This document shows, piece by piece, positions 224-64,000 of a DNA stretch of 64,000 bases. Every line of letters begins with the position of its first letter. Position 1 is the first letter of the stretch. The position numbers and the translations under genes were made by a program. A model generated the notes under the pieces. It was not told where the DNA came from and did not search any database. It saw only the letters and a list, made by a program, of their open reading frames with translations. The stretch is from assembly GCA_022818135.1 (NCBI GenBank), contig JAFMSR010000007.1, forward strand, positions 4,915,224-4,979,223. Reading direction: 5' to 3'. The DNA is from Saxidomus purpurata. Its lineage: Eukaryota > Mollusca > Bivalvia > Venerida > Veneridae.

Positions 224-335
224 GTTCCCCCAAACTAGCGAGATGTTTCAAAGACTTGACATTCGTCATTAAAAGTCTTCCAGATGACACTCTAACAGAG
301 GTCGCCAATCACTACTTTCTTCAAACAAAGTCATT
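224..335 (+). CDS. Exon 1: lipid-transfer-protein superhelix
   Basis: Flanked by 'cttgtag' and 'gtaagc'. Reads as helical sequence with the phrases SLPDDTLTEVANHYF and QTKS, which fit a helix pair of the vitellogenin / MTP superhelical domain. Starts in phase 1 and ends in phase 2; codon completed in exon 2. Confidence 0.8.
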
Positions 336-3300: not shown

Positions 3301-6300
3301 ATCGTGAAAATCAATGTAATTTCAATCCGAGTATGTTTCAGTTAAAACACATTGCGTCACGAATTTCGTGAAAAGCAGAGCAAAAACTAGAACTGCCAAT
3401 TCCAGGGGATCATGAATGGTCGTATCTTATACCGGGTATTAACAAATTGAATTCGAGATCTCAAAAAACTTGTATTGAACGAAGTCCTACTTCCGGTTGC
3501 TTTTGCAACTGTATCTCATCGAAATATTTCTTAAAACCATTGATTTTGTAAATAAAGTATTATTACAATAACAAAATACATGTAGTTCGCTTTTGTACAG
3601 GTTCACAATAATGGTAAGACCCATATTCTCCCTACCCCAATCATCATCATTGCGTATTTGGCATTTTAATATTTTTCTTTTATTTTTTGAAAAGTTTAGG
3701 CACGTGCCTACAGTGCCTATAGGAAGCTACGCCCCTGGAACTGTTTTGCCAGAACTTGGCAGAGCCCAGAAACTATTATTCCGATGATTTAACCCGTGCC
3801 GGAAAAATCAGTCTGGCACCCATCCTATGCCGGACGACTCTCGTGTATTACTTGTGACGTAACGTAATAAACATTTTGACGTCACTTTCACAAACACCAC
3901 GTTTGAATACCGTTTGTTTTTTTACAAAAATGCATCATTTTGACAAGATTGCATTTAGAAATCTACTTAAGGAAGTGCAAGACATTATGCAAGAATAAAT
4001 TTCTATTATGAGACATTTAGTTCAGAGTGAAATATCCGTCACCTCGGGTAACTGTTTTGCGGAGCCTCGTTCCCGCCAAAACTGTTACCCTTGGACCGCA
4101 TGCTCATGACAAAAACTATTAGTAAACCGAAAAAGGCTTACAAACCACATTTTGTACATACATATGCATGTATTCCAGTACAGATTTACCTTATATTTGT
4201 TTTGCTACAATTTTTATACAGAGTATACGAAGCACAGCTGTTTAAAGCAAACACATAAAATATGTATTAAGGATGCGCTACCTAAAACTGATCAAATCAA
4301 ACAGTTGATAAGCATAAATAATAAAATATGTGCAAATAGTATTACTTAACCCAAATGTTTAAGCTATACATTCCAGTTATCATATGTTGCAGTATCGTAA
4401 AAAAATCTATTTAAGTTGTTGAAAAATTAATGGGCGGAAGGCGTTATATTACAGATAGTCTTTATGCATATCATTTTTGGTAGAATGAGGCAGGTTGTTC
4501 TTTAAAATTGTGATAACTCAACATTTTACATTCATTGAACACAATATTTATGTTTGGAGAATATGATCAGCTAGATGTAGGGAGTACCCCTTGAAAGACT
4601 ACATTATTTTCGTTGTAGGCCGTGACTGAGGTCGTTACAAAGATGTGTCTAGCCGGCAAAGTTAAAGAGGGCATTAAGGTCAGCAAAGAATTGCAACAAA
4701 TGTCGTGTCTTACGTTTGGTGGGATGTTGAAAAGCATTAAAAAATATGGGAAAGCTGAGCGCGCTGGAACTTTGATTGGGCATATTCATACAAAACTTGG
4801 AATGCATGGTAAACAAATCGTCCTTAGGAATAATATGTTTTCTTAGCAACGAGTCGAATAGGGAATTTCAGGTCCCTGACTTCAGGCGACTTATAGAATA
4901 TATTTATGCCTTTAGGCTTATTTGATTTATTGCATGTATGACGTTTTCTTATTTTTAGCTCACCTGACCATGAACTTTTAGGATGGTTGAATGTCCAGCG
5001 TCCGTCCGTCGGTACGTCTGTCGTTCACATTTGCTTCAAATGACATCTTCCCTGAAACCAATAGGGCAATGTTAATGAAACTTTGTAGAAATGTTTCTTG
5101 CAAAATTGTTCAAAGAATTCCATTCCATGCAGAACTCTGGTTGCTATAGAAACAAATAGGACAAAATAAAAGAATCTTCTTCTCTAAAACTGCAAGGCAA
5201 GGAGCTTAGATATTTGGCATGTAGCATTGTCTAATGGGTCTCTACCAAAATTGTTCAGATCGTTACCACAGGGTCCAAATTGACCCCGCCCTTGGGGCCA
5301 CTTGATTTTACATATGTTTCTATAGAAAAAATCTACTCTTTAACCACAATGTCTATAATTTAGATATATGGCATGTAGCAATGCCTAATGGACCTCTACC
5401 AAGATTGTTCAAATCATTATCCCCTCGTCAAAATTGACCCCGACCTAGTGGTCACTTGAAGTTTCTATAGAAAAAACTAAAAAATCTTCTACTCTGAAAC
5501 CATGAGGCCATCAGCTTAGATATTTGGCATATAGCATTTCTTAGTAGACGTCTATTAAAATGTTTTCAAAATCATGTCTCCCGGGTCCAAATTGACCTCG
5601 CCTGGGGGTCATTTAATTAAACATATGTTTTTGTATAAAAAATACTTTTGTTTCTCTGAAACCACAAAGCCCAGAGGTAGGATATTTGGCATGAAGCATT
5701 GCCTAGTGGACCTCTACCGAAATTGTTCAACTCATGATTTCCGGTTCAAAATTGACCCGCCCGGGCTCTTTTGATTTTTTATAGTTTATTTCGGAAAATG
5801 TTGTCTTCTTTAAAACCACAAGATACATAGTTAAGAAATTTGTCGTGTAATATTGTTTAGTAGACCTATATCAAATGTGTTTAAATTGTGCCCCTGGCGT
5901 CAAAATTGACCTTACCAAAGGTTCACTGGTTTCTTTATAGACTTACTTTCTCTGAAACCACAAGGCCCAGAGTTTAGATAGTTGGCATGTAGCATTGCCT
6001 AGTAGACATGCGGGTACATTATTCAAATCTTGCCCTGGGGTTGTTGGTTCTGGCCGAGGGGTCACTTCTTTATTGCAGGAAAACATTTAAAAATCTTCTT
6101 CTCCAAAACCACAAGGCCTACAGGTTAGACATTAAGTATGTAGCATTGTCTTGTGGACCCATACCAAATCTTTTCAATGAGGTCAATAGTGGCCCCGCCC
6201 GGGTGGTTACTTTTTCTACATATACCTATTTAATAACCTTAGATACTTTTCTTTTCCAAAATCACAATGTATAGAGCTTGGATATTTTGTATGCAGCATT

Positions 6301-21300: not shown

Positions 21301-21535
21301 GAGATTTCATCAATATAAATATTGTCGTAAAGTTTCATTAAATCTTATAATTTATTTGTTCTTTATTGCGGTCGCTAGAATACTTACAGGACGTTGTTTA
21401 CAGGCGAACGAACAGACAGACACCGGACAATCGTTGTTAACGCTTTCTCACACCCCTTTTCCTGAAGAACGGTGGTGGGCAAAATTTTTTTTTTTTATTT
21501 AAAAAAAAAAAAAAAATAAAAAAAAAAAAAAAAAA

Positions 21536-21575
<40 letters not shown>

Positions 21576-54500: not shown

Positions 54501-57500
54501 ACTCATCATTTTTGAAATATAACAAATGTAAATTTCCGGAAGTGCAAAAATCCAAAACCTCACCAGCTGCTCGCTCTCAAATTTTGATGAAAAATAAAGT
54601 TCTTCAATCTGATTAACAATAACAGTTGTTAGGACATAAAGTCCAATAAAAAGGTTCCAGTATAAATTCCTGTAAAGTATATATGTGTACATATATTTGA
54701 AATTATACGCTTCCAAATTGTACAACGTAACAAACGCTTTTAAAATTTCAGTTGAGTTGTTGATTCTAGCAATTACTTTTACATTTTGTATGGCAGTACA
54801 TCATTTTGGAGAACTTCATGTTTTTTAATTGTGAACAAGCAGCTTTTAGTTCGCCTGAGCACTCAGAGTTCAACAGCAAGCTGTTTTCACTTCAGTTTAA
54901 TAATTGCTCGTTCGTCCTAAACATTGACTTTTAAAACACTTAAAGTCACATGTTTTGTCATATTTTAAATTTACCTGAAGTTGATGTTTGATTCGAACAA
55001 ATGTAAAACAAGACTAATTATAGCGAAAATAAAAACCCCGTGATGAATACCCCCTATAGAGTAATTATTTTGTAAGCGGAAAATGCCCGAATATTTCTTG
55101 CTTGTGAAATTTATAAGAATAATTACACATTATTTGTATTTCAGACTTTTCTTTGAATACCTGGCTTAACAATGTCGGCCATGATATTAAGAATAGTCTA
55201 CCAACAGCGTTGATTGATACTCTGCTACAAAATCTTGATCTAAAAAAGTTTTTGCTGGTCCCCGAATGCAGCACAGATGATGATATATATGCACATTTGT
55301 CCAATGGATTTTCCTCCGGTAGGAAATTGTTCTTAACTAAGTTTGTTTCAATTTCTTAGATATTCCGTTCTTGAATATTAAAATCTGTTTATTTGATAAA
55401 TTCTCTGATAATCATAATAACACGACTGATTATAATTATGTAGCTGGATACAATTGTCCATCCGTTTGTCTGTGTGCTTATTGTCGGCAACCACTAGTTG
55501 GAATTCAATGAAGCCTCACAGATGTATGTAGTACCAGACATAGGTGTACATATCCTCGGCATGTTTCAGTCGGGTGACTTTTCATTGAGTTATTGTCCTT
55601 TGATATTTTTATACATACATCGAGGTTTGTTTCCACGTTATTACTCAACAAAATCTAAGTTGGAATTCAGTATATAGTCGTAAATGAAAGTTAAGTACCA
55701 AGCACAGCTGTGCATAGCTTTGACAAGTTTCAGGCAGATACTTTTCATTGAGTTATTGCCCTTTAAATTGTTCCTGCACAAAGTGTACATAGATATGTTT
55801 GTCCGCGGTCCTTCTCATCAACCATTGGGTGGAATTAAATGTTAATTAACAGGAGTGATTAATACCAACCTAATTAGCACATAATGTTTGCAAACTACGC
55901 ATTAATAAGTTAATTTTCGAGATATTGCCCTTTGATTGTTTCATACGTTTAGTATAAATTAAGTTGTTTCTCCCCTCTATTTTACAGTTACCACTGACAC
56001 GAATACATTGAATATTCACATGAATGGTCAGTCACGAGCTTAATTGTGCGAATTGTCAGCATGTTACACCGTGATAAACGTTATTGAATTATTGCCCTTT
56101 TAAATTATTCATAGATTTCGCGTACATTGAGATGCTTTGGGTGCGCTATTTCTCACCAATCACTGTCTGAAAATAAATAAATGTTCACATACATGTAAAC
56201 GATAAGCACAAAGCTAAGTTGAGCATATTGTTGGCATATAGTACTAAGATAGATCTATTATGGCTGCAATTTCATGAAACATCCGAGATACTCTCCAAAA
56301 AGCAAAAGCCCCACCGCAACCATCAGCGTGCAGCACCCATATCTAGTGCTCTTATTCCTGTACTGTGTACAAAACATACGTCTATATTTATACAGACTGC
56401 AATGCGACGTTATCTTTACCTATACTACCGGATGAGGTTGTTTGCCATATCCCAGACGTCTGTACTGGACTAGAGTGCTGCATTTACATATCTCTTATCA
56501 GACGATCGGTCAAGGCAAAGTTTCTGTTGGATGCCTGCATTTACAAAATAACCATCGGAATCGAACGACTTGAGAAGACGATTTCTTTATTACATTATCA
56601 GTTTGGTAATTGTAATAATTAGACAATTGCTATTTATTAAACTCTTAAAAATATTTTCATTAATTTGACTTTTGTTTGCTTTGGAATTATTAAAGGTGCT
56701 AATATCATAATGTAACAGTATTCATCGGAAACGTAGTGTCAATTCAAAAATTGAAAAATGTAATCAATTCTGTTTTATCCAATTTCTTATGTCAATTTGG
56801 AGAACATTTGGAGTTACGTTTCCTGTCGGAATATTTATCAAAATAGATTAAAACGTTATTTTGTTCATTCAGAATGTTCAGGAAATTGTATTTTAAACTT
56901 TTTATCTGATTTTAGGAACAGTACATCACTTCTTCCTAGCTGGAGTCTTCAGAATTGAGTAAGTACTATGAATTTTAAAATATTACGTACGTGGTTTCTA
57001 TTCGAAGAAGTATGGGATTACTATAAAAGGACAAGCTTTAGCGTGTCTTAAAACATCTTAGTCATTGAAGTGTAATTATTACATATAAACATATTATGTA
57101 ACTGCAGTGTTAGAAAAGGTGTGTAGTAATTATTAGCTATCAAACACTGACAACAAAATGAAAATAGTTCATGTGTGTTTTATATGTGTTAGCCAGTCTT
57201 AGTTGAAAAACTTTTTCAAACCAATACTTTTGAAAATATACTATAACGTGGGCTTTACTACTCAGAATATATATTTGCTTCCATTTTCTTTCATTGCATA
57301 TAGTTTTTATGTTGCAGTTACTTTCAGTGAGCTTTATGGGACTAAGAGCTAGCGTTCCTCGTTATCAAATAAGTTTGTGTCCTGTCCCGAGTTACAATAA
57401 ACCTAATTTTCATAACCATAAGATCGAATATATTGAACCTTGGAGTTGGCATATACCCGTTTAATTATTTACTTCATTAACTTAAGTTTACAAAACTAAA

Positions 57501-60500
57501 TGTCAAAAACATGTTTTTTGTCTTCATGTTTTTATAGTTGTGTATGTTTTGCTTTTCAGTTTCAAAATTGATGATCTGCAAGGCAAAAAAATGTTCGTTG
57601 TTAACCTTGCAATTAGCGTTTGCTTTGAACGAAACGACTGCATATTTACTGCGACAATTTTTTCGAATGCTTACATACCAAAGCCTTTATGCAATTGGAA
57701 CAATGGTTACAATATCAAAGGTATTGCCATATTCAACAGACATTTTACAAGTATATGCGTAAGTACATTAGTAAAGTTAAAATCGAAAACAACAAACGAT
57801 GCATTGATCGGTGCATAAAGTATCCTCATATTTTAGTCGATATCCGGTTCCTGTAAATTATAGACTTACTGACTCGTTTAAGTGACATTCCCAGCAACTG
57901 GAAGATTTTCTATTTCTAGCAGACGAAATGGCATAAAACACGTAATATAAGACAAAATGCAATTTTAGAGAAGAACATATATCTTCTGTGCACAAAATGA
58001 CAAATACTTTCTATTATAAATCGCTATCCGCCAAAACCAGCTTTAAATGATGGTATCACGGTACTAAAACATGTCTTATTGTACCAATACTTGCTGCAAT
58101 GTTTAAATAAAACTTTGAGGTTTGGTGACGATTCTTTCACTTACTGAATTGCTTATATACTTTTAAGATATTTTTAATTGCATTCAGTTTTAGAATGTGT
58201 CATAATGTAGTCGCAATCGGTAAAATCGCAAATATATAATGACGCAATATACTGAGATTTCTCCAAATAAATCATGTTTTTATGAATGGGAGTAGTCTAA
58301 AATGGTTTTACCGCCCAAATATGTATCTATAAAATATGTTTCTATAACATATGTCAAGACAAATTTTATTTTTGTTTCAGGTGGTGTATTTTAGCTATGT
58401 ACAGTTTTAGTTTATCCTTTAGACCACAAATATAATACCAAATGTAGGAAAATAGGTGCAATATTTAAAGCCTAATGTATTGTAGATAACATACTCTTCC
58501 AAAATGACTTCCATAAGTGACATGGCTTATTCAGTATAAAGTTTTACATTGTGGCGTTCAGTGACAATAAAATCTAAAATAAATCAGTTTTGAACTAATG
58601 GGAAACTAGTACGATAAATCTCCCGTTTGAATTGTAAAGTTTTGACTGACAAACACGAACTGGTTTTCAAGTCAAATGGATAGTCAAAGCAAGAGATCAA
58701 GTCGACTTTGCAAATGTTACATAGAGCATTAAGTGAGACACGTATCTTTAATCTTTTAAATAGACAAAGGTGACAATTACAATTGTATTTTCATATTTAC
58801 TATTTTAACACAGAGGTATTGGTAATACTTTAGATATTACAATTACAAATCGGTACAATTTGTGTTTGTTTACTAAAATAATGAACTTGAGATTTTTAGT
58901 AGATTTTAAATATATATTTACAATTTATTGTAGATTATTCTTTGAAGAACTGGTTGAATTCCGAGGGTATTCAACTTGGTGGTAATGCCTTAAAAGAGTA
59001 CGCCATAAATAAACTTCTGCACGAGCTTGGCATAGGAGAATATTTAAAGGACGACCAGTGCATTCGTGGAGAAACCCCGTTTGTCAATTCTGGAAATGGT
59101 TGGAATAATGGTAAATAATATATATGACCGACGTCGCACAAAAATGGGCCTTCGGACATTTGTTACATTATTAAACAATAATAGATTGCAAACAACATAA
59201 AATTGACATTTTTGTCACCTTTTTTAAATGCAAAACCAATGTTGAAAAGTGATAGCCACTATATTTTCCTGCACGGAAACATTCTATTTGTTTCAAAAAC
59301 CTTCAAGACCATTGCTATGGCAACAGCGATTCGCACTGATTCTTTTTTATGTTGGCTATACCCTGTGAAAAAATCTTATCGTGGTAGGAGGACAGGCAAG
59401 ATATCACCATTTAATTATATATCAAAAGTGTATATAATTTTGCAAACAAACATAAATGATGCTGTTAGAAAATGATAACTGTAATAATTTTCTGCCCATG
59501 TAAATTGAAGTGAGTTTTGACGTCAAATCGTGGTATTTGACGTAATTTAAAGAGTGAACAATGACGTCTTAGGTTTACTTTTTTAGAATGTTGTAATTTT
59601 GTATCTAGACGTAGGTAACTGAAACTTTCCTATAATTGATATTGAATTTTTTTTTGTTAAAAAAATGAAAGAAAGCTAGATTTCAAGTATTTAATCCGAA
59701 GGCCCATTTTCACGTGTCGCTGGTCATATATATTGAGTCAAAACGTAAATTCTAACATAAAGTTTCTGTATTGAAGTTCATCTCTTTCAATTTATTAGTC
59801 AGCGTTTGACTTTTAATCTACGTAGTTACATGAAAAGCCATATATGTTATTGTGCAGTTTATTGTGCATGTTTTGAAACAAAATAAGTTTTTTTCATAAA
59901 AAGACTAGTGGCCTCTAAGGTTTACTAAACGTACAAAAACTGACTAAGGTATTTACAGCAAAAACAAAAGATTAAAGAAAGCATTTAAACTAACACATAT
60001 GTTCCGCTTGTCTCTGATACGTGTGTGATATTTATACATTTGTGGCAAGTTCTAGTTCTCTTTTTATTAAACGCTTTGTGTATTGACATTTTAGAATGTC
60101 CTGGAACTGCTGCTGAGGTCAGCCTTCCTAATGACATGACGTGTCATGTGCCAAATTATTGTACTGGGATCTCATGCTGTCTTGACATTCCGTTCCTACG
60201 GAGATCATTCCTGTTTCATGTTTCTATTGATACATGCTCCTATGCGTTTGCCATCGGAATAGAAAACTATGGAACGGAAATTTCATTACTGAACTACAAG
60301 TGGGGGACTGTTGAAACTGTATCATTATTTGGTGTACTCTCTTTGAGGTACGTGAAGCTATTTAATTCACTTATTTATTTGATTTCTTCTCTAATCGATC
60401 AACATTATGTGGCTATTTGTGGTCTCTTGTGTAAAGTCACAACAATGCAAGCTAGATTTCTTTTTTTGTCTCTTCAGCATAAATGTTTCAGTTTCACAGT

Positions 60501-63500
60501 CAATTAGACATATCAAATGAAGTCATTGACTTCTAGGTCAAAACAGAACCTTATACAATTTTATTTTTTACTTACAACTCACTTTTTAAGACACCGGTAT
60601 TTGCGGTTTAACTGAAATAAGTAACATAATTTAATGTTAAACAACGAAAACTTTTTACAAGAGTGTACGAAATTCCCTTCTCCTGGTACAGATAGATTGG
60701 CAGGCAAAAGTAAAGTAAAGACCTTTAACATTAAGAACATGCAGAAAATCATTCCATAACATTTTGCATTTAGATATATAAAACAGATATACTTGAAAAC
60801 GTGTAAAATTCTTAATAAACGACAAAAAATAAATGCGGACGTTGTTATCAATATCATTCCATACAATTTTTATCGATCTTTGGATGACACTAAAAATATC
60901 TTTATTTGAAATATGAAAATATATCTCTATTTCAGGTACAAAGTACAAAACTTAGAAACTGAAAAACAACTTCTCGTGGATATGCAGCTGTCTATTTGCT
61001 TTGAAACTAATTCATGTGAACAAAAAATCGACATTTTTAACAGTAAAAGGATTCCAAAAATTGGATGCAACTGGAATGTAACTTTGAAAGGTATTAATGC
61101 CTTTGAATTACAGACTTGTTGCTTAACTTACAAGTAGCGACAAAGGGTTCGTGTCTGTATGAATTTAAAGGTTTTTTTAACTACCTTTTAAAAGGAGAAG
61201 ATAACTGTAAGCAAAGCCTAATGTAATGTGATCAAACACAGAACCAACATGGAATTAAAATAGTTCCATTTACGATAAATACGAAACAAATTTATGCTAC
61301 ATGATGTAAGAGATAACTAGCAATATCAGTGTATATGTGTATCTACTTATTTACTTAGTATACCATTGAAATTGCTCAACATCGTGTTGCTGGGATATAA
61401 CATGCCATCGGCTAAATACGTTTCATTTCTGTTATAGTCTTCATACCAGAAATTATCAACTGTTTGATGCTTGCAAAATATCTTTCAGACTTTGACCTTA
61501 CGGCATACCTTGAATCTGCTGGCGAAACATTAACCGATCACCTCGAGTCATATGTAGCAGACAAATTGCTTGAAAAGCTGGGAGTTCTGAAGTTCCTTAG
61601 TAATAATGTGTGTGATATGAAGTCGTATACTGCTGACAGAGGATGGGCAAATGGTATCATTTTACCAAACTTTATTGCGTTCTTTGTAAATGTAATGCAA
61701 AAATTCTATTATTATTTTTCAGTCACACTGTATTCAAGTATAAGAACTGATGAAACACTAAAACTTTGACTTAAGAAAGTGTGTCAAAGATATCAATTGT
61801 TTCAAAACATTTTAAACAAACATGGCTTATGCTATTTTTACATTTATGTTTCAGACTGCACAATGTTTGATGCTTCGAAGCTACCACTTCTGCCTGCACC
61901 ACTTAAATGTCACATATATGCTGGTTGTACAGCAATACATTGCTGCCTGAATTTGCCAGTCCTTCAACGTTCAGTCAGTACAAGAATCAATGTAGACACC
62001 TGTAACTACAGACTCATTGTAGGAATAGAGGATTTAGAACTGATGGTCCCTCTCTTTGATTATGAATGGGGTTCAAATAAGACCCTAAGTATAAATGGCG
62101 TTTTCAATATAAAGTATGTTAACACTTCACATCAACTGCACTTACAGTATACATTGTATTCTATGTCTAGTTTAATGAAAATGGTGACTAATATATTTCC
62201 AGCGCCTTTCTCCAATTCAAAATTGAAATCAATTTCATCTATTTTAATGTAGAAATCTGGAAAGCTTATAATATGTTAAATCGGAAATAATATATAGCGT
62301 TTAACTTAAAATAAATAGATAACGTTATTATATAAGCATTCACCTAAAGAAAATATGAATTTATATCACGAATTGGTTTAGTTACGTCCGGTGCAATAAT
62401 CAGGAAACAATATTTACCATACATCTTTTTCTTCTCAACGTATAAGAACTTTTCAATTTAAAGGTATTCAATTGATGACCTTCCATCTAGCAAGATGTTA
62501 TTGATATCGATGTCAATATCTGCATGTTTGGATTCAAAGAAATGCATATTTGATGATGATGTTTTGACCGACGTCCTGCTTCCAAAGCCTATATGTTACT
62601 CGGACGGAAGTGTCCAACTAACAGGTTGTTTCTTTCTACAATGTATACAACGTAGGGTTTAATTCAAAATAAAACAATCTTTACCTCTGATTCATCGGCT
62701 GCTAAAAATGCTTTCTATTATCGGTTTATGGTAATCCTGTAGTTTTTTCTGGTTATTAAAAGATAAATAAATCAAAATTTAAACAGTTGTACATTTGAGA
62801 GTAAGAAGTGGTATAGATTGTTATTTAACTGCTGAACAAATGAAATGGATTTTCGTACAGTCGTAGAAATGAAAAGACAGTTTTTATAGAATTTGCATAT
62901 ATGTTCACTTTTCAAGTTGCAAAAATATAACATATATTGATACGACTATTTTCCCATATACGGTAAAATTCTGATTTCACATATCAATGTCTAATATTAA
63001 GTAATAGTCAGATAATTCATAAATATTATAAACCCGATTCAAAGTTTGATAATAACTCAACTTCCTTAAACATAGCTGAAATACGCAAAAATGCTTTTAT
63101 ATAAATGACGCAAATGTCAGCCTTTTTTCTTCTATTAACAATATTAAGCTTTCCTCATTTTCGTCAAATTAATCAAATGTCACTTGTAATTAACGAATGA
63201 CAATAGATCCATGTATATTTTCTAGATTTCTCCCTTACGTCTTGGTTAAACAATGCAGTCGGGGAGGTGACTAATCAACTGAATGGTACACTCCTTTCAT
63301 TATTGTTCGAGCGGCTAGGTATAACTCAGTACCTACTGCAACCAAGCTGTGCAGTTGAAACGTCTGACAAGGGATGGAGATCAGGTATCACATGTTAAGA
63401 TTTTCTCTTTGGTTTATCTGCTGATATTACATATAAACTAAGTGTTATAAGTAAAAAATACTGTCTCCACATATATATTTTTGAACAAATAAAACTTTAA

Positions 63501-64000
63501 CATGTTTATAACACGTGTGTTTATTATTTTCAGAATGTGATGCAGCTTTACAAGTGTCAGATCTTCCTGACAGTATGAGTTGTTATATTGAGAGTGATTG
63601 TCTTGGATATACGTGCTGCATGTTCATCCTTCCAATACGAACTTTTCAATTTGCAGTCAAAATTGACGCTTGTGATTATACCTTGAAAGCAGTTATTGAA
63701 AATCTGACCTATAAAAAATCGCTTGTGGACTACGATTTTGGTATATATTACTTAAATACCTTTTCGTTTTAGAAAGTGTTTACTCTCATTGTACATTGAC
63801 AGGATAAAATAAAAATTGATAGGACTCTTATTCTGTTATATTAAGAGCTGGAACTTAACCGTTTTTAATGCATTGCAATTAATGAGTGAGGATGATACAT
63901 TGTGTTTCCGACGTATGTACTTTGAAATGTATTTTAAAAATAAAGCGTACATTCTCGTTGTAGGTGAAGAAACAACTTTTGACATTTTCGGGGTTTTGAA
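224..64000 (+). CDS. Giant multi-exon gene: lipid-transfer-protein / LECT2-like / tandem Cys-module protein (partial at both ends)
   Basis: This is one gene of at least 52 exons whose intron phases agree at every junction, so I treat it as one transcript. Approximate residues within the window product: 1-389 superhelical lipid-transfer-protein region; 390-650 unrecognised amphipathic helices; 650-825 LECT2-like M23-fold domain; 826-893 acidic linker with a furin site; 894-991 helical segment and SAP-like motif; then nine ABCD modules. By family knowledge, large lipid transfer proteins are secreted and bind or carry lipid; the LECT2-like and Cys-rich parts also suggest an extracellular protein. 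Neither the signal peptide nor the stop codon is in the window. Introns of over 300 bases in which I see only AT-rich sequence and which have no entry of their own are: 9137-9699, 9893-10511, 10789-11129, 11670-12208, 12368-12783, 25905-26550, 27120-27556, 30702-31200, 31323-31716, 36203-36990, 37131-37510, 40560-40985, 44539-44998, 47878-48228, 56959-57559, 60348-60935, 61091-61488, 62114-62463 and 62625-63225. Confidence 0.9.
546..720 (+). CDS. Exon 2: lipid-transfer-protein superhelix
   Basis: Flanked by 'cctttcag' and 'gtaaca'. The phrases NAVTDAFGAIGDIRSQK and IPKDEQLIERILSSFV are close to the repeated helix pairs of vitellogenin and MTP, in which a 'D-A-x-G..G-T/D' turn precedes 'L'-rich helices. 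Ends in phase 0. Confidence 0.88.
782..847. repeat. Three perfect 22-bp tandem copies
   Basis: Unit 'aatttcttgcatatcggatc' plus 'gg', at 782-803, 804-825 and 826-847, identical. Lies in the intron just before the dispersed repeat at 871. Confidence 0.95.
871..1089 (+). repeat. Dispersed repeat, copy interrupted by insertion
   Basis: From 'tcggaaaaatcagtc' to 'cacctcgggtaac' this matches 3799-4052 in the same direction, with small differences. Its continuation 'tgttttgc' is found beyond the element at 1090-3738. Confidence 0.75.
1090..3738. mobile_element. Candidate DNA transposon, non-coding, with inverted ends
   Basis: Left end 'caggggcgtagctt' and right end 'aagctacgcccctgg' are inverted copies. 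The element splits the repeat at 871, while the copy at 3799 is unsplit at the same point ('gggtaac|tgttttgc'). 'aac' lies on both sides and may be a short target duplication. The CAGGGGCG start resembles hAT or related ends, but no transposase is visible. Inside lies a relic of the 52-kb array family near 3070-3235. Confidence 0.55.
3799..4092 (+). repeat. Dispersed repeat, uninterrupted copy with terminal hairpin
   Basis: Second copy of the 871 repeat. It runs through the insertion point intact and ends in a small hairpin ('gggtaac ... gttaccc', 4046-4092). Confidence 0.65.
4619..4808 (+). CDS. Exon 3: lipid-transfer-protein superhelix
   Basis: Follows a 3.9-kb repeat-rich intron. Contains MSCLTFGGMLKSIKKYGK and ends with HTKLGMH; family members typically read 'lgsla..l...g....a..iv..lh..lglHd' here. 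The last base G plus AT of exon 4 makes Asp, giving LGMHD as in the family. Confidence 0.88.
4958..6405. repeat. ~153-bp tandem array of mollusc type
   Basis: Starts with 'agctcacctgacc' and 'cgtccgtccgtcgg', then about eight diverged units marked by 'ttagatatttggcatgtagc' near 5208, 5358, 5515, 5676, 5829, 5971, 6125 and 6275. Same family as the array at 32390. Open frames here are chance. Confidence 0.85.
6430..7385. repeat. Minisatellite of ~22-bp units
   Basis: Dozens of imperfect copies of 'gacttccttagcaaccagt', directly after the 153-bp array. Remainder of the intron up to 9063 shows short duplications near 8670-8960 ('gcaagtatgagccgaagctg' twice) and otherwise nothing I recognise. Confidence 0.85.
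9064..9136 (+). CDS. Exon 4: superhelix linker ending in Arg run
   Basis: The acceptor is 'ctctgctacag' at 9063, not the earlier 'ccctag' at 9052, because only this choice keeps phase with exon 3 (phase 1 in) and exon 5 (phase 2 out). Encodes LPENYAQQLYIPASY and then GLLH. The split codon AG|A and the next codons give four consecutive arginines. Confidence 0.75.
9700..9892 (+). CDS. Exon 5: superhelix, 'TLGNAGL' motif
   Basis: Begins after 'gctgtacag'. Encodes RRATMTEEES, then KVILLDTLGNAGL and WIKRAGVHALRSF, which are hallmarks of the vitellogenin / apolipophorin superhelical domain ('LLxTLGNAGL...W.RRAGVHALR'). Frames further upstream contain stops, which fixes the start. Ends in phase 0. 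Confidence 0.9.
10512..10788 (+). CDS. Exon 6: end of superhelix and start of lipid-binding sheet
   Basis: Encodes VRYEAKLQLEAHPL, then PGIDWRKDIGGESIGASLGL and IMQNLLDLHIG. The 'I-D-W-K/R-K-x-I-G' phrase marks the passage from the helical domain to the first lipid-binding beta sheet in this family. Starts in phase 0 and ends in phase 1. Confidence 0.9.
11130..11275 (+). CDS. Exon 7: beta-rich segment of the lipid-binding region
   Basis: Phase 1 in, phase 0 out. Alternating hydrophobic strands (GQLLINVQDEAYAKVHVGF, then LNFDFYVARICF) resemble the C-sheet / A-sheet of a lipid transfer protein. Ends with GGTQYNMNILQ before 'gtaaga'. Confidence 0.85.
11493..11669 (+). CDS. Exon 8: amphipathic helices, family not recognised
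   Basis: Exactly 59 codons, phase 0 at both ends. Amphipathic helices such as LVTEFGKVVKSVTGAI and FSLKDIVEDFVGSFEALA. It could belong to the lipid-binding cavity or be a separate helical bundle. Confidence 0.85.
12209..12367 (+). CDS. Exon 9: amphipathic helices
   Basis: 53 codons, phase 0 at both ends, between 'atacacag' and 'gtatgt'. Encodes AVSLSSTAYTALDRF and KYTEAIVGLYERITEDVM. Continues the helical region; no family recognised. Confidence 0.85.
12784..12904 (+). CDS. Exon 10: amphipathic helices (3' end ambiguous)
   Basis: Encodes SIVEAVNIIIPQAAEQIF and FMNIFKDWKTSLF. I end it at the donor 'gtattg' (phase 1), which matches exon 11. The stronger-looking 'gtacgt' at 12927 gives phase 2 and does not fit. 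A third choice, 12930 (phase 0) with an acceptor at 16692, also keeps frame. Confidence 0.75.
13200..14300. repeat. Diverged ~650-bp tandem duplication in intron
   Basis: The segment near 13250-13330 ('gggtttaccgatttcgataaa', a21-base phrase shortened here to its core 'accgatttcgata') recurs near 13925-13990. 'tgtctagtgaat' near 13445 and 14095, and 'gtcttactggtt' / 'gtcttattggtt' near 13590 and 14200, keep the same order and spacing. Old and strongly diverged. Confidence 0.5.
15600..16275. repeat. Two short-period diverged repeats
   Basis: Near 15650-15800 a unit with 'cataagcatatttc' appears twice. At 15955-16270 about five units of ~55-60 bp share 'gacttttgttttcttgtgt' and 'ctcttcatacc'. 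The open frames on both strands here come from this repeat. The rest of the intron to 16684 shows nothing I recognise. Confidence 0.6.
16685..16848 (+). CDS. Exon 11: helical segment
   Basis: Lies after a 3.8-kb intron, acceptor 'attttgctag'. Encodes LEPYWKNVTEVFENEIIDL and GQRWVQEQLENDQVL, strongly helical, with one N-glycosylation sequon (NVT). The donor is the less common 'gttagt'. Phase 0 out. Confidence 0.8.
16849..17643. other. Intron, nothing recognised
   Basis: AT-rich sequence between exons 11 and 12, with no convincing repeat or reading frame. Confidence 0.6.
17644..17804 (+). CDS. Exon 12: helical segment
   Basis: The real frame is LRANVLQELRSVMMVI, then EDFGGGYMKNFITLFNTF and AYNTLRNG; a longer overlapping open frame in another phase is a shadow. 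Acceptor 'agggccag' (phase 0), donor 'gtaaga' (phase 2). Last exon before the LECT2-like domain. Confidence 0.8.
17805..20200. other. Long intron, possible old retroelement fragment
   Basis: Mostly plain AT-rich sequence. The part near 19000-19560 is less AT-rich than its surroundings and might be a decayed retroelement read on the minus strand, but I find no diagnostic motif. Confidence 0.4.
20201..20387 (+). CDS. Exon 13: LECT2-like / M23-fold domain, first part
   Basis: Contains TGGGCSGNGF, matching the LECT2 'G-H-G-C-G' region, then KEYIMKGVDLQIEEGHT. LECT2 and M23 peptidases have H-x-G-x-D here; this protein has M-K-G-V-D, so the first zinc-binding His is replaced by Met while the Asp is kept. 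The part before it includes a Cys (QTCHKDF). Phase 0 out. Confidence 0.85.
20640..21420. repeat. ~150-bp tandem array of mollusc type
   Basis: Units marked by 'gtgacctagttt' and 'gacctagatttcatc', near 20650, 20800, 20980, 21125 and 21260. A family common in bivalve introns by my recollection. Confidence 0.75.
21486..21570. repeat. Long A tract
   Basis: About 80 bases of almost pure A, broken by a few T. Follows the array at 20640 and may be the tail of a retroposed element; also a likely site of length error. Confidence 0.85.
21856..22016 (+). CDS. Exon 14: LECT2-like domain, middle part, with a one-base frameshift
   Basis: The flanking exons require phase 0 at both ends, yet the exon is 161 bases long. 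It starts in frame as VVSPF, matching LECT2 'TVYAPF', and then the sensible frame (GSIYLSKDDDEIVIESGE) is shifted by one base at the run cccctttt / gggg near 21869. A single missing base in the T or G run explains this: an assembly or sequencing slip, a null allele, or decay. Ends PTYDEQV before 'gtaatt'. Confidence 0.8.
22351..22615. repeat. Foldback: three copies of one phrase, the middle one inverted
   Basis: 'aaaattggcgtgtt' followed by 'cttcaaatgtaagttcttc' occurs at 22358-22395 and 22560-22598. The inverted copy ('ttgaagtcaaacacgcc') is at 22474-22495. The rest of the intron (22017-23419) shows nothing clear. Confidence 0.8.
23420..23599 (+). CDS. Exon 15: LECT2-like domain, last part with HxH motif
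   Basis: Exactly 60 codons, phase 0 at both ends. Encodes VGAGDAIGTAKK, FNHIHLAI and DPSAYIA, matching the last M23/LECT2 part ('kkGe.lGt', 'HvHie', 'DPtaYl'). Both histidines of HxH are present. It ends with CDDYKLVFL. Confidence 0.88.
24692..24945 (+). repeat. Dispersed repeat, first copy
   Basis: From 'gagttccttatccacaactc' to 'cagtcatttttcgat' this matches 35600-35848 almost base for base. Here only the right arm of the hairpin seen at 35511 is present. The rest of the intron from 23600 is unremarkable. Confidence 0.85.
25090..25228 (+). CDS. Exon 16: acidic linker
   Basis: Low-complexity acidic sequence: GPRGRNDEDTTEEVPAGEEE followed by SDMDESARP. Probably disordered, joining the LECT2-like domain to the processing site in the next exon. 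Phase 0 in, phase 1 out. Confidence 0.8.
25785..25830. repeat. (TA)n/(TG)n microsatellite next to splice acceptor
   Basis: A run of 'ta' then 'tg' units ending about 10 bases before the exon 17 acceptor. The rest of the intron (25229-25784) shows nothing recognised. Confidence 0.8.
25839..25904 (+). CDS. Exon 17: predicted furin cleavage site
   Basis: A 66-base exon, phase 1 in and out. Encodes KIYSELNDQQRRKKRGIFNE. RRKKR|G is a strong furin-type proprotein convertase site, placed right after an acidic disordered linker. Members of the vitellogenin / apolipophorin family are commonly cut at such sites. The acceptor lies just behind a TA/TG microsatellite. Confidence 0.82.
26551..26705 (+). 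CDS. Exon 18: D-type helical segment ('module 0')
   Basis: Encodes ASVKDLIADVKAFLKRLSI, IIQFLDEFGF and ATLMKTVR. Its layout matches exon 23 and, more distantly, the D exons of later modules (helix, 'L..LG', helix). Phase 1 in, phase 0 out. Confidence 0.83.
26981..27119 (+). CDS. Exon 19: SAP-like motif
   Basis: After NKPCLPPARMS it reads DLKMELFSRGKDSEGSREEM, then IRTLILLDN. This fits the SAP pattern (L-x-x-E-L-x-x-R-G ... G-x-x-x-E-L/M-I-x-x-L). SAP motifs are usually nucleic-acid binding and nuclear, so its presence in a secreted-type protein is odd; a helix-turn-helix of similar shape is the alternative. Phase 1 out. Confidence 0.8.
27557..27775 (+). CDS. Exon 20: module 1, A domain (divergent)
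   Basis: Encodes SCPWITLNLPDDGPMYC, then CLGIECCLTIEAFGLL. Keeps the C...C...CC core but lacks the later Cys of 'I-D-x-C-x-Y' (here VDLDIV) and the closing Y-E-W-G. This is the most diverged A domain. Phase 1 in and out. Confidence 0.85.
27907..29496 (-). mobile_element. Tc1/mariner-like transposon, broken
   Basis: Ends are inverted: 'aaattcctaaacggtcactt' on the left and its complement on the right near 29476-29496. About 1.6 kb long, in the intron before exon 21, carrying a minus-strand transposase remnant. Confidence 0.8.
28125..29233 (-). pseudogene. Tc1-like transposase remnant
   Basis: Minus strand. The start near 29233 reads MVRMTEE then a stop, then RARAVGMIQAGTHLRQ; an intron-like gap (29069-29162, gt..ag) follows; then VARTFNRRLSTIQALW and RFKQSVTTPQQDRNTII. 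The 3' part has LLQNNAPCHVTRATLAML and PPKSPDLNPIEHVWDLLKRK, the classical Tc1 end. The Asp normally found in 'Q-D-N-A-P-C-H' is Asn. With the stop and the frame breaks in the middle it cannot be active. Confidence 0.82.
29571..29637 (+). CDS. Exon 21: module 1, B strand
   Basis: 67 bases, longer than the usual 43-base B exon. Encodes IEDTVRLGLNIKFLED and LIIR, with phase 1 in and phase 2 out, exactly as in all B exons. The intron before it carries the Tc1-like element. Confidence 0.8.
29638..30570. other. Intron, nothing recognised
   Basis: AT-rich; the minus-strand open frame near 30152-30391 has low-complexity content and no recognisable motif. Confidence 0.6.
30571..30701 (+). CDS. Exon 22: module 1, C segment
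   Basis: Split codon gives Arg, then YKLKITSTHLTVTFGAGLC and DVNDCFVFHYLL. Keeps the two cysteines of the C exon, though the tail lacks the 'P-x-P-x-C' seen later. Phase 2 in, phase 1 out. Confidence 0.83.
31201..31322 (+). CDS. Exon 23: module 1, D helices
   Basis: Encodes IDSVKQMVANLDTNFSEQL, then DKFLEELGVSAE. Comparable with exon 18 and the later D exons; here the D unit is split, with its Cys-bearing end in exon 24. Phase 1 in, phase 0 out. Confidence 0.85.
31717..31858 (+). CDS. Exon 24: module 1, second SAP-like motif
   Basis: Encodes SQFCPLPKNYEYAELAEFL, then HNQPSTGERYDLEQRYIDTR. The layout matches exon 19 (Cys-Leu-Pro, then L-x-x-F-L ... G-x-R-x-D-L-x-x-R). The donor is taken at 'gtaaat' (phase 1); a second possible donor 'gtattg' lies 9 bases on and also keeps phase. 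Later modules have no such exon. Confidence 0.78.
31881..32224. mobile_element. Small foldback element behind exon 24
   Basis: 'taaagttatattacccttca' on the left faces 'ttgaagggtaatatcacttt' on the right as inverted ends about 340 bp apart. It begins 22 bases after the chosen exon 24 donor, so the open reading that runs past that donor is element sequence. Confidence 0.5.
32390..33250. repeat. Array of two mollusc-type repeats
   Basis: Begins 'gctcacctgagtgagc' with 'gtccggcgtcgtccg'. Two units of the 153-bp family follow ('cttagatatttggcat' near 32599 and 32755), then ~100-bp units marked by 'gttttgcatgcagatttcaa' near 32957, 33070 and 33163. A further unit lies at 34319, behind the duplication at 33470. 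Confidence 0.7.
33470..34230. repeat. ~380-bp tandem duplication
   Basis: 'gggtcgcgaaaatagg' and 'acaaacgaaaaatc' at 33610 recur at 33986, with the same following order ('ggtatcaa', 'tgattaa...taatcaaaaacattt', 'aggaggggaat'). It splits the ~100-bp array at 32390. Confidence 0.75.
34867..35109 (+). CDS. Exon 25: module 2, A domain (divergent)
   Basis: Encodes CEVLGTSFTLPKMKN, ISDDCMRIDACMEF, ELDPCNYVIRAAFE and LLFEYEWG. The usual CC is AC and the 'C-H-I-P' Cys is missing, but the end is canonical. Phase 1 in and out. Confidence 0.86.
35320..35444. repeat. Long hairpin 1
   Basis: Left arm 'atcaagtgatttcatattgg' plus 'ccttgttatttgtcc' pairs with the right arm ending 35444; about 50 bases per arm and a short G/C-rich loop. 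Near-perfect. Confidence 0.9.
35511..35634. repeat. Long hairpin 2
   Basis: Left arm 'gagttgtggataaggaaatc' (35521) pairs with 'gatttccttatccacaactc' (35605). Including 'ggttgagatacgt' / 'acgtatctcaacc', each arm is about 52 bases. Sits 67 bases after hairpin 1. Confidence 0.9.
35600..35848 (+). repeat. Dispersed repeat, second copy
   Basis: Matches 24692-24945. The right arm of hairpin 2 is its first part. No further feature is seen between it and exon 26 at 36160. Confidence 0.85.
36160..36202 (+). CDS. Exon 26: module 2, B strand
   Basis: 43 bases between 'tatttacag' and 'gtgagt'. Encodes GRLEKVKLSKTVFL plus a split Thr codon. Found from the module phase rule (1 in, 2 out). Confidence 0.78.
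36991..37130 (+). CDS. Exon 27: module 2, C segment
   Basis: Acceptor 'aacatatcag'. Encodes FRIEKNDERKEFEVDLGLQL, then GFAIPIPVCN. A longer open frame over the same bases in another phase is a shadow. The cysteines before P-I-P-V-C are absent. Phase 2 in, phase 1 out. Confidence 0.83.
37511..37645 (+). CDS. Exon 28: module 2, D helices
   Basis: Encodes NLQDLARALGGHLNRDVF, KKLGIDSLFSTGTC and ends SSPHG. Short D exon (135 bases) without the 'N-G-W-x-N' ending. Phase 1 in and out. Confidence 0.85.
37646..39041. other. Intron, nothing recognised
   Basis: Plain AT-rich sequence between modules 2 and 3. The minus-strand open frame at 38965-39270 is a shadow of exon 29. Confidence 0.6.
39042..39290 (+). 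CDS. Exon 29: module 3, A domain
   Basis: Encodes DCPPDLSMIVTVPEKL, LKCELADNCFGVICCIDI, MKMDPCEFSVDAGIG and SYEWG. Cysteine pattern is complete (C, C, C, CC, C). Slightly longer than later A domains. Phase 1 in and out. Confidence 0.88.
39527..39581 (+). CDS. Exon 30: module 3, B strand
   Basis: 55 bases between 'cttataag' and 'gtaaga'. Encodes GKPGTITFGKGNPAPVVI plus a split Arg codon; four residues longer than the common B exon. Phase 1 in, 2 out. Confidence 0.82.
39582..40395. other. Intron, nothing recognised
   Basis: AT-rich, with no clear repeat; the minus-strand frame near 40086-40322 has no motif. Confidence 0.6.
40396..40559 (+). CDS. Exon 31: module 3, C segment
   Basis: Encodes RYVLDKYQDGFIVDFSVNIC, then IKFCIPENGL and TIPACDIS. 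Three cysteines as in the canonical C exon. Phase 2 in, 1 out. Confidence 0.88.
40986..41159 (+). CDS. Exon 32: module 3, D helices
   Basis: Encodes DFSLKEWLDEKGGDINVDL, FKLLGIDEFLLSPAC and SNGWNN, the full D consensus. Phase 1 in and out. Confidence 0.88.
41210..41605. repeat. Mollusc-type interspersed repeat
   Basis: Phrases 'caaaggtcaaggttacagtg' and 'gatcaataa' recur in two half-units (near 41390 and 41515: 'aacaggtcacaggtccaag'). Ends with 'catttcttgtttttg'. Confidence 0.6.
41872..42397. mobile_element. MITE-like element with inverted ends
   Basis: Ends 'tataggagtgatcg' and 'cgatcactcctata' are perfect inverted 14-mers, 526 bp apart end to end, with no coding content. Flanked by 'tta'/'tag', compatible with a TA-type target. 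Confidence 0.75.
42808..43282. mobile_element. Pogo/Tigger-like MITE candidate
   Basis: Left 'cagttaaacttcgataatgc' and right complement 'cagtgaaactttcattaact' resemble the 'CAGT-aaac-tcgataa-tcga' ends of pogo-type elements. Inside, 'gctcgggttat' and 'cctcgggttattga' repeat. The open frames on both strands are by-products. Confidence 0.6.
43600..44190. repeat. ~147-bp tandem repeat, three to four units
   Basis: 'agtatgaagtctagttgtgc' near 43820 (variant), 43964 and 44112, each followed by 'gtcac..ctcaaaggtcaatgtc' and 'cttcttctc'. Ends about 130 bases before exon 33. Confidence 0.75.
44323..44538 (+). CDS. Exon 33: module 4, A domain
   Basis: Encodes CPLSFVKLKDILPESMSC, HIPDHCTGIDCCVDI, DIDLCNYVVSGGIE and FEYEWG. 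Fully canonical Cys pattern. Phase 1 in and out. Confidence 0.9.
44999..45041 (+). CDS. Exon 34: module 4, B strand
   Basis: 43 bases between 'tttttaag' and 'gtaagt'. Encodes GKTEVVTILNIFRL plus a split Thr codon. Phase 1 in, 2 out. Confidence 0.85.
45555..46598. mobile_element. TIR element with tRNA-like core
   Basis: Left 'tatactggattcataccagt' plus 'tgtcgggcg' faces the right 'cgcccgagaactggtagg' plus 'aatccagtata' as inverted ends, about 1.04 kb apart. No transposase seen. Contains the polymerase III-like boxes annotated separately. Confidence 0.65.
46048..46115 (+). ncRNA. tRNA-derived SINE-like head (A and B boxes)
   Basis: 'tggtcgagtgg' at 46056-46066 fits the A box and 'gttcaaggc' at 46100-46108 fits the B box, with tRNA-like spacing. 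A functional tRNA is unlikely because I see no acceptor stem; a SINE head is the better reading. Confidence 0.45.
46880..47335. repeat. Diverged tandem repeat
   Basis: 'gaggcctctagtggggtggt' near 46894, 'gaggctctcggtggggtagg' near 47132 and 'ccgaggggtgga' near 47304 mark three old units of about 170-240 bp. The rest of the intron to 47719 shows nothing. Confidence 0.5.
47720..47877 (+). CDS. Exon 35: module 4, C segment
   Basis: Encodes YTIKKPSNEKIFIIDLKVAV, CMEKDDSCLLEE and VPQPGCDTSLSL. Two close cysteines and the P-x-P-x-C end are present. Phase 2 in, 1 out. Confidence 0.9.
48229..48411 (+). CDS. Exon 36: module 4, D helices
   Basis: Encodes DFSMQTWLANNGIGNII, LEITGIDKYFLDEPCQI and DNWNN. 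Full D consensus, 183 bases. Phase 1 in and out. Confidence 0.9.
48412..49651. other. Intron, nothing recognised
   Basis: AT-rich sequence between modules 4 and 5; the forward open frame at 49360-49584 has no motif and no supporting splice phase. Confidence 0.6.
49652..49864 (+). CDS. Exon 37: module 5, A domain
   Basis: Encodes ECLKLGIDLPTLPDTTVC, APSCTAVECCTELEYI, SIDFCNFTISGAIE and LNYDWG. Canonical cysteines; W-G kept, with Asp for Glu. NFT is a possible glycosylation site. Phase 1 in and out. Confidence 0.9.
50119..50161 (+). CDS. Exon 38: module 5, B strand
   Basis: 43 bases between 'ttgttacag' and 'gtattg'. Encodes GQEREEAILNVIKI plus a split Arg codon. Phase 1 in, 2 out. Confidence 0.84.
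50162..51505. other. Intron, nothing recognised
   Basis: Plain AT-rich sequence between exons 38 and 39. Confidence 0.6.
51506..51663 (+). CDS. Exon 39: module 5, C segment
   Basis: Encodes RYSISKTDKYFIIDLSLLVC, MDVKTSCQLDLK and VPIPICNMDM. Phase 2 in, 1 out. Followed by a 3.5-kb intron filled by a tandem array. Confidence 0.88.
52170..54032. repeat. Large mollusc-type tandem array
   Basis: Two starts, 'gcccgaagggtggcatatta' with a 'ccgtccgtccgtc' run, near 52181 and 52911; two ends, 'gggggcattcgtcact' with 'gagggacagctcttgtt', near 53730 and 53994. In between are many units with 'gtgtccggactgtaac', 'gcattgaaggattttaaaat' and 'caaaggtcaaggtcacac'. Confidence 0.9.
53034..53574. repeat. Perfect 253-bp tandem duplication
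   Basis: 53034-53286 and 53287-53539 look identical base for base, followed by a partial third copy from 53540. Neighbouring units are diverged, so this is recent or an assembly effect. Confidence 0.9.
54033..55144. other. Intron remainder, nothing recognised
   Basis: AT-rich sequence between the array and exon 40; the minus-strand frame at 54498-54725 has no motif. Confidence 0.55.
55145..55318 (+). CDS. Exon 40: module 5, D helices
   Basis: Encodes FSLNTWLNNVGHDIKNSL, LDLKKFLLVPECSTDDD and LSNGFSS. Split first codon gives Asn instead of the usual Asp. Phase 1 in and out. Confidence 0.89.
55440..56130. repeat. ~165-bp tandem repeat, four units
   Basis: 'gagttattgtcctttgatat' near 55587 and variants near 55750, 55920 and 56082 ('tattgccctttgattgtttc'), each preceded by 'catgtttcagtcgggtga'-like sequence. 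Lies between exons 40 and 41. Confidence 0.7.
56396..56605 (+). CDS. Exon 41: module 6, A domain
   Basis: Encodes DCNATLSLPILPDEVVC, HIPDVCTGLECCIYI, LLDACIYKITIGIE and LLHYQFG. The closing Y-E-W-G is Y-Q-F-G. NAT is a possible glycosylation site. Phase 1 in and out. Confidence 0.9.
56916..56958 (+). CDS. Exon 42: module 6, B strand
   Basis: 43 bases between 'attttag' and 'gtaagt'. Encodes GTVHHFFLAGVFRI plus a split Asp codon. Phase 1 in, 2 out. Confidence 0.84.
57560..57720 (+). CDS. Exon 43: module 6, C segment
   Basis: Encodes FKIDDLQGKKMFVVNLAISV, CFERNDCIFTAT and IPKPLCNWNN. Phase 2 in, 1 out. Confidence 0.89.
57721..58933. other. Intron, nothing recognised
   Basis: AT-rich sequence between exons 43 and 44, with no clear repeat. 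Confidence 0.6.
58934..59110 (+). CDS. Exon 44: module 6, D helices
   Basis: Encodes DYSLKNWLNSEGIQLGG, HELGIGEYLKDDQC and GNGWNN. Its donor 'gtaaat' lies only 8 bases before the end of a TIR element. Phase 1 in and out. Confidence 0.89.
59119..59732. mobile_element. TIR element directly behind the exon 44 donor
   Basis: 'tatatatgaccgacgtcgca' plus 'aaatgggccttcgga' on the left pairs with 'tccgaaggcccattttcacg' plus 'tcgctggtcatata' on the right, about 37 bases per end. 614 bp, no coding content beyond chance. The intron from here to 60094 is otherwise plain. Confidence 0.8.
60095..60347 (+). CDS. Exon 45: module 7, fused A+B exon
   Basis: Encodes ECPGTAAEVSLPNDMTC, HVPNYCTGISCCLDI, SIDTCSYAFAIGIE and LNYKWG, then runs on without an intron into the B strand TVETVSLFGVLSLR. 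Elsewhere A and B are separate exons. Phase 1 in, phase 2 out, as expected for A plus B. Confidence 0.9.
60936..61090 (+). CDS. Exon 46: module 7, C segment
   Basis: Encodes RYKVQNLETEKQLLVDMQL, SICFETNSCEQKI and IPKIGCNWNVTLK. NVT is a possible glycosylation site. Phase 2 in, 1 out. Confidence 0.89.
61489..61653 (+). CDS. Exon 47: module 7, D helices
   Basis: Encodes DFDLTAYLESAGETLTDHL, LLEKLGVLKFLSNNVC and DRGWAN. Phase 1 in and out. Confidence 0.9.
61855..62113 (+). CDS. Exon 48: module 8, fused A+B exon
   Basis: Encodes DCTMFDASKLPLLPAPLKC, HIYAGCTAIHCCLNL, NVDTCNYRLIVGIE and FDYEWG, then runs straight into the B strand NKTLSINGVFNIK. Second consecutive module without the A/B intron. 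NKT is a possible glycosylation site. Phase 1 in, 2 out. Confidence 0.9.
62464..62624 (+). CDS. Exon 49: module 8, C segment
   Basis: Encodes YSIDDLPSSKMLLISMSIS, ACLDSKKCIFDDD and LPKPICYSDG. Phase 2 in, 1 out. Confidence 0.89.
63226..63384 (+). CDS. Exon 50: module 8, D helices
   Basis: Encodes DFSLTSWLNNAVGEVTNQL, ERLGITQYLLQPSC and DKGWRS. Phase 1 in and out. Confidence 0.9.
63534..63740 (+). CDS. Exon 51: module 9, A domain
   Basis: Encodes ECDAALQVSDLPDSMSC, ESDCLGYTCCMFIL, KIDACDYTLKAVIE and VDYDFG. The intron after it is present again, unlike modules 7 and 8. NLT is a possible glycosylation site. Phase 1 in and out. Confidence 0.9.
63964..64000 (+). CDS. Exon 52: module 9, B strand (cut by window end)
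   Basis: Acceptor 'tcgttgtag'. Encodes GEETTFDIFGVL and stops at the window edge with no stop codon, so the array continues beyond it. Confidence 0.82.

Follow-up and report, generated by a model that had tools for sequence, protein, structure and literature searches.

A predicted Saxidomus purpurata gene joining a lipid-transfer-type region, a LECT2-like domain and tandem cysteine-rich modules

Gene model and exon structure

A stretch of 64,000 nucleotides from the bivalve Saxidomus purpurata (GenBank assembly GCA_022818135.1, contig JAFMSR010000007.1, positions 4,915,224 to 4,979,223 of the forward strand), in the following called the window, was analyzed with respect to one large gene on its plus strand. 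The exons from position 224 to 63740 are predicted from the sequence to form a single mollusc gene for an open protein of at least 2637 residues, with two unclean joins. Strong exons were obtained by automatic chaining using generic splice-site scores and codon usage, module exons by comparison of the window with itself, and short exons by phase and splice score. The chain of 50 exons was curated before any relative was consulted; all of them are bounded by AG and GT, and the translation of 2637 residues (two X) is free of stops. Exon 14776–14832 was added from relatives, giving 50 plus one exons instead of the 52 of the original prediction, whose named motifs were all found in the window in the proposed order on the plus strand.

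Exons V1 to V4 (224–335, 546–720, 4619–4808, and 9684–9892) encode the predicted Vitellogenin_N-type helical superhelix of the lipid-transfer part, and V5 and V6 (within 10512–11275) its end and the first beta sheet with the motifs IDWRKDIGG and ARICFKGG. They are followed by the predicted long amphipathic helices of exons H1, H2, H3, H3b, H4, and H5 (11493–11669, 12209–12367, 12784–12926, 14776–14832, 16685–16848, and 17644–17804) and by the LECT2/M23-like domain of exons L1 to L3 (20201–20387, 21856–22016, and 23420–23599), where the extension of L3 to 23599 was taken from the alignment with relatives. Exons K1 and K2 (within 25090–25904) encode an acidic linker ending in the furin-type site RRKKR↓G, and exons K3 and S1 (within 26551–27119) encode helices and a first SAP-like motif. 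The divergent cysteine-rich module 1 (exons A, A2, B, and C) and the subsequent exon M1D, which carries a further SAP-like motif (the second), lie within 27557–31858. Modules 2 to 6 each consist of exons A, A2, B, and C (34867–37645, 39042–41159, 44323–48411, 49652–55318, and 56396–59110), while in modules 7 (60095–61653) and 8 (61855–63384) A and A2 are fused into a single exon. With the first exon of module 9 (63534–63740), nine A-type module exons are present, in agreement with the at least nine modules proposed earlier.

Between 224 and 63740 the exons connect in phase apart from two breaks, at H3/H4 and L1/L2; outside these two junctions, the phase-consistent chain of the original prediction holds. 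H3 (phase 2) and H4 (phase 1) are incompatible; the inserted exon H3b agrees with relatives, and its junction to H4 is still without a clean join. Exon L2 carries a one-base frame slip in the homopolymer block CCCCTTTTGGGG (about 21864–21875), through which the relatives read; it is either an assembly error or a real allele, which the sequence cannot separate. Within the window, the gene showed neither a start nor a stop codon. The gene extends past both ends, and the Mizuhopecten orthologue has 320 residues upstream of the part visible here.

Some introns carry further elements. A DDE_3 transposase fragment (28125–28487, minus strand, Pfam E 6e-10) lies between exons A and A2 of module 1, and three tandem arrays lie at 43817–44177 (period 143 bases), 52383–52881 (170 bases), and 53008–53582 (253 bases).

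Relatives and conservation of the domain order

A first protein search returned 11 bivalve proteins, and two profile searches, in which only the 7996 or 7994 candidates richest in common words were scored, brought the set to 40 relatives. Own domain models were built for the lipid-transfer helices (VN), the sheet (VB), the helix part (HX), the LECT2-like domain (LX), the SAP region (KS), and the modules. The Mercenaria protein P0001 (LOC128553035, partial) aligns to chain residues 1–2637 with 46% identity and the Mizuhopecten protein P0005 (LOC110450253) to the chain with 34% identity, while the VN–VB region of the window reaches 51% to Mactra antiquata and Ruditapes. With models built from relatives only, 38 stop-to-stop segments of the window were matched at E 0.01 or better in the order VN, VB, HX, LX, KS, modules; the search covered both strands, and all matches lie on the plus strand. 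Among them, V1 to V4 gave E-values from 8e-6 to 6e-35, V5 and V6 3e-14 and 6e-21 with VB, and K3 and S1 8e-18 and 4e-16 with KS. Reversed relatives gave no match to the first model set, which included window rows. None of the window's own exons exceeded a Pfam cut-off (M23 E 0.01, SAP E 0.045, HEAT_2 E 0.13); the domain names rest on the relatives.

VN was found in 32 of the 40 relatives, together with HX in 26 and together with LX in 18 (11 species). Thirteen relatives from eight species (Mercenaria, Mizuhopecten, Mya, Mytilus edulis, M. galloprovincialis, Nucella, Batillaria, and Haliotis asinina) combine VN, LX, KS, and at least one module. The fusion thus recurs in unnamed gene models of several bivalves and gastropods, the kind of evidence from other mollusc proteomes that the original prediction had named as supporting, and its claim of one fused protein is further supported by seven modules that match Mercenaria one to one. 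In the whole set, 22 of the 40 relatives lack VN, LX, or both: six models consist of modules only (P0002, P0006, P0007, P0009, P0010, and P0011), P0003 and P0004 have LX without VN, and 14 have VN without LX, several of them being plainly partial. In P0008, VN amounts to the last 31 residues only. The lancelet protein P0031 (Branchiostoma belcheri) comprises VN, the sheet, and a partial HX, by which the lipid-transfer and helix half may be older than the molluscs.

The exons could also belong to two or three adjacent genes that seem to be one through a chance match of phases. Introns of up to 4875 bases and the two junctions out of phase would fit such an arrangement, and early stops, named beforehand as the sign that would speak for separate genes, are partly present. 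The gene models of Potamilus (P0025), Mactra (P0026), Crassostrea virginica (P0027), and Solemya (P0028) end at HX 111–115, beside the H2/H3 boundary of the window (intron 12367–12784), each followed by a tail of between 4 and 32 residues. These four stops weigh against a single long protein; they may result from a break in the model or prediction or represent a real, possibly conserved, short form beside the long one. P0024 breaks off at HX 160, close to where H3 ends, and the oyster models P0024, P0027, and P0030 have neither LX nor modules, where the searches made do not distinguish loss from splitting. Given the 13 models holding VN, LX, KS, and a module, and the end-to-end alignment of Mercenaria and Mizuhopecten, we regard separate genes as highly improbable.

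Identity of the individual parts

Vitellogenin_N was called by Pfam in P0001 (E 4.2e-9, 36 bits versus a cut-off of 24) and not in P0005 at E 0.01, i.e. in one of the two scanned VN-bearing orthologues, and PF01347 is precomputed for 13 of the 40 relatives. The predicted structure is a helical superhelix followed by a beta sheet. MTP gave the best structural alignment of the lipid-transfer part, nearly tied with designed HEAT repeats, and in these models the part looks closer to MTP than to yolk vitellogenin. The conserved sheet region spans only about 88 residues, and behind it come some 290 residues of predicted long amphipathic helix, with a hydrophobic moment of z 8.3 versus shuffles; the AF2 model of the relative P0017 was used as a basis, too. 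A hydrophobic leader was recognized by eye in P0005.

A vitellogenin-like carrier of lipid for yolk or reproduction would be in line with Vitellogenin_N in P0001 and with the Mya model, for which honey bee vitellogenin was the best Foldseek match (E 8e-4), although its TM-scores were low (0.17 and 0.12). Also, work on yolk candidates in the snail Biomphalaria dealt with four LLTPs, of which two are named vitellogenins and the other two apolipoproteins (PMC10799875). However, the accessible part of that report does not mention a cysteine-module arm for them, the best structural alignment is MTP, and at E 0.01 neither P0001 nor P0005 yielded DUF1943, DUF1081, or VWD; a far C-terminal VWD is possible because P0001 is labelled partial and P0005 ends within a module. 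A yolk role is accordingly judged unlikely.

The LX domain matches the LECT2/M23 fold, with LECT2 as best fold match. PF01551 is precomputed for seven of the 40 relatives, and the Peptidase_M23 scores of the window (16.4 bits), P0001 (23.0), and P0003 (27.1) stay below the cut-off of 28.7, while P0005 was unlisted at E 0.01. The motifs HxxxD and HxH form the zinc site of M23 peptidases. In the window, methionine replaces the histidine of HxxxD (MKGVD) and NHIH is kept, leaving the motif pair of an active M23 peptidase incomplete. Of 21 sequences, 19 lack this first histidine, namely the window together with 18 of the 20 relatives, and the first histidine of HxH is also gone in four Mytilus copies. 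A peptidoglycan-cutting enzyme, delivered to bacteria by the remainder of the protein, could be imagined from the fold and from the two Haliotis copies P0017 and P0020, the only ones among the 21 sequences with both motifs complete. Such an enzyme is very unlikely in view of the lost histidines and of LECT2 as best match, which is not known as an established peptidase. Since a metal ligand is lost in most species, binding is likelier than catalysis.

In the linker, the motif RX[KR]R was found as RRKKR↓G in the window and, among 16 orthologues, in five, namely Mya and four models of Mercenaria; within the relatives, the predicted furin site is limited to clams. Separately, P0005 contains an RRRR run upstream of the sheet (about residue 613), a possible cleavage site at a different place. 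The SAP family was detected in P0005 (45.9 bits, E 3.8e-12) and P0004 (26.8 bits, E 3.8e-6) at a cut-off of 23.9; it was unlisted for P0001 and P0003 at E 0.01, and the window stayed below with 13.8 bits (E 0.045). Of the family labels in the original prediction, the vitellogenin/apolipophorin assignment is thus retained for the family and tentatively shifted towards MTP, and LECT2/M23 is retained for the fold without the intact zinc site. The proposed profile check on Vitellogenin_N, Peptidase_M23, and SAP was positive in relatives (Vitellogenin_N in P0001, SAP in P0004 and P0005) and below the cut-offs for the window exons.

Each module has ten conserved cysteines and is assembled from exon pieces A (phase 1-1), A2 (1-2), B (2-1), and C (1-1). 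Modules 2 to 8 start and finish in phase 1, which would allow duplication of whole modules without a frame break. Modules 1, 4, 6, and 7 had no Pfam match above cut-off; the best PDB sequence match of a module had E 0.055, and the module fold prediction was of poor quality. A tree was calculated from 48 of 52 modules of the window and five of the 40 relatives, four short ones being dropped. For M1, M3, M4, M5, M6, M7, and M8, the pairing of the window module with the Mercenaria module of the same number is strongly supported (100/99 for M1), and M2 forms a single clade across bivalves. Bivalve M1 groups with the one gastropod M1 included, whose placement is unsure because of its long branch. 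For clam modules 4 to 8 no supported scallop or mussel partner was found in the tree; scallop M5 groups with its mussel counterpart M5. Among the last modules, two pairings of scallop with mussel are moderately supported. From this tree, the later modules have likely multiplied separately in mollusc lineages.

Module matches range from 1 to 24 per relative in the 21 of 40 relatives having any. In Mytilus californianus P0004, two VWA stretches (E 9.7e-66) stand among the modules and one module contains a 21-residue repeat in 20 tandem copies (residues 1930–2350), and in Solemya P0011 fn3 follows the modules. VWA and fn3 domains are common in matrix proteins. By this variation in count and these additional domains, an extracellular structural protein is suggested as well, whose module arm would build matrix, byssus, shell, or egg coat and whose lipid-transfer part would be a leftover folding or secretion domain. 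The conservation of the lipid-transfer part and the amphipathic helices from gastropods to clams, needless for a mere leftover, makes this explanation doubtful, although it deserves consideration.

Proposed role and comparison with known systems

For a protein consisting of an LLTP-type region, amphipathic helices, a LECT2-like domain, a furin-type site, SAP-like motifs, and nine cysteine-rich modules, we see an even chance that it is a secreted protein whose first half binds lipid and whose second half binds other surfaces. Secretion is proposed because of the leader in P0005 and the cysteine-rich modules, and lipid holding because of the LLTP family and the amphipathic helices. The superhelix, sheet, and helices would hold lipid or sit at a lipid surface, and the LECT2-like domain would have become a binding head instead of a peptidase. 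In clams, a furin cut after RRKKR might free, or merely loosen, the arm of SAP motifs and modules, and the disulfide-rich modules could then engage many target copies at once. The module arm is likely the part meeting variable targets, judging from its lineage-dependent length and the adhesion-type domains in one mussel. The lipid-carrying immune or recognition role suggested in the original prediction stands as a hypothesis.

More tentatively, the protein may represent a new class of animal lipid-transfer proteins, namely a lipoprotein into which a multivalent receptor is built, comprising an MTP-type lipid part, a LECT2-like head, and a string of previously undescribed 10-cysteine modules, the later copies of which were apparently multiplied separately per mollusc lineage; it would be a separately evolved mollusc counterpart of the crustacean lipoprotein/glucan-binding precursor. 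The LLTP superfamily gains a bivalve and gastropod lineage with a LECT2-like domain and a module without convincing Pfam or PDB match in the searches made. A domain map is now available for many proteins labelled uncharacterized or hypothetical, and the question whether molluscs, like crustaceans, employ lipoproteins in recognition becomes testable.

With MTP, vitellogenin, apoB, and apolipophorin II/I, the protein shares Vitellogenin_N (P0001), the predicted superhelix followed by a sheet, and the leader (P0005, by eye). It differs from MTP and other LLTPs in the sheet region of only about 88 residues, the amphipathic helix of about 290 residues, the LECT2-like domain, and the cysteine modules, and from vitellogenin- and apoB-type proteins in the uncalled DUF1943, DUF1081, and VWD of P0001 and P0005. 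Unlike LECT2 and M23-fold domains such as SpoIIQ, the domain is embedded in a giant LLTP and has mostly lost the histidine of HxxxD. The crustacean dLp/HDL-BGBP precursor is an LLTP yielding a lipoprotein and a glucan-binding protein; two furin sites were predicted by its authors, and both products were reported from haemolymph by mass spectrometry (PMC8416765). A LECT2-like domain, a SAP motif, or cysteine modules are not mentioned in the accessible part of that report. Like the crustacean precursor as described there, the mollusc protein would be a secreted LLTP precursor of thousands of residues, with predicted furin site(s) between a lipid part and a recognition part. By analogy, the dLp/HDL-BGBP precursor would be the closest precedent and working model for the mollusc protein.
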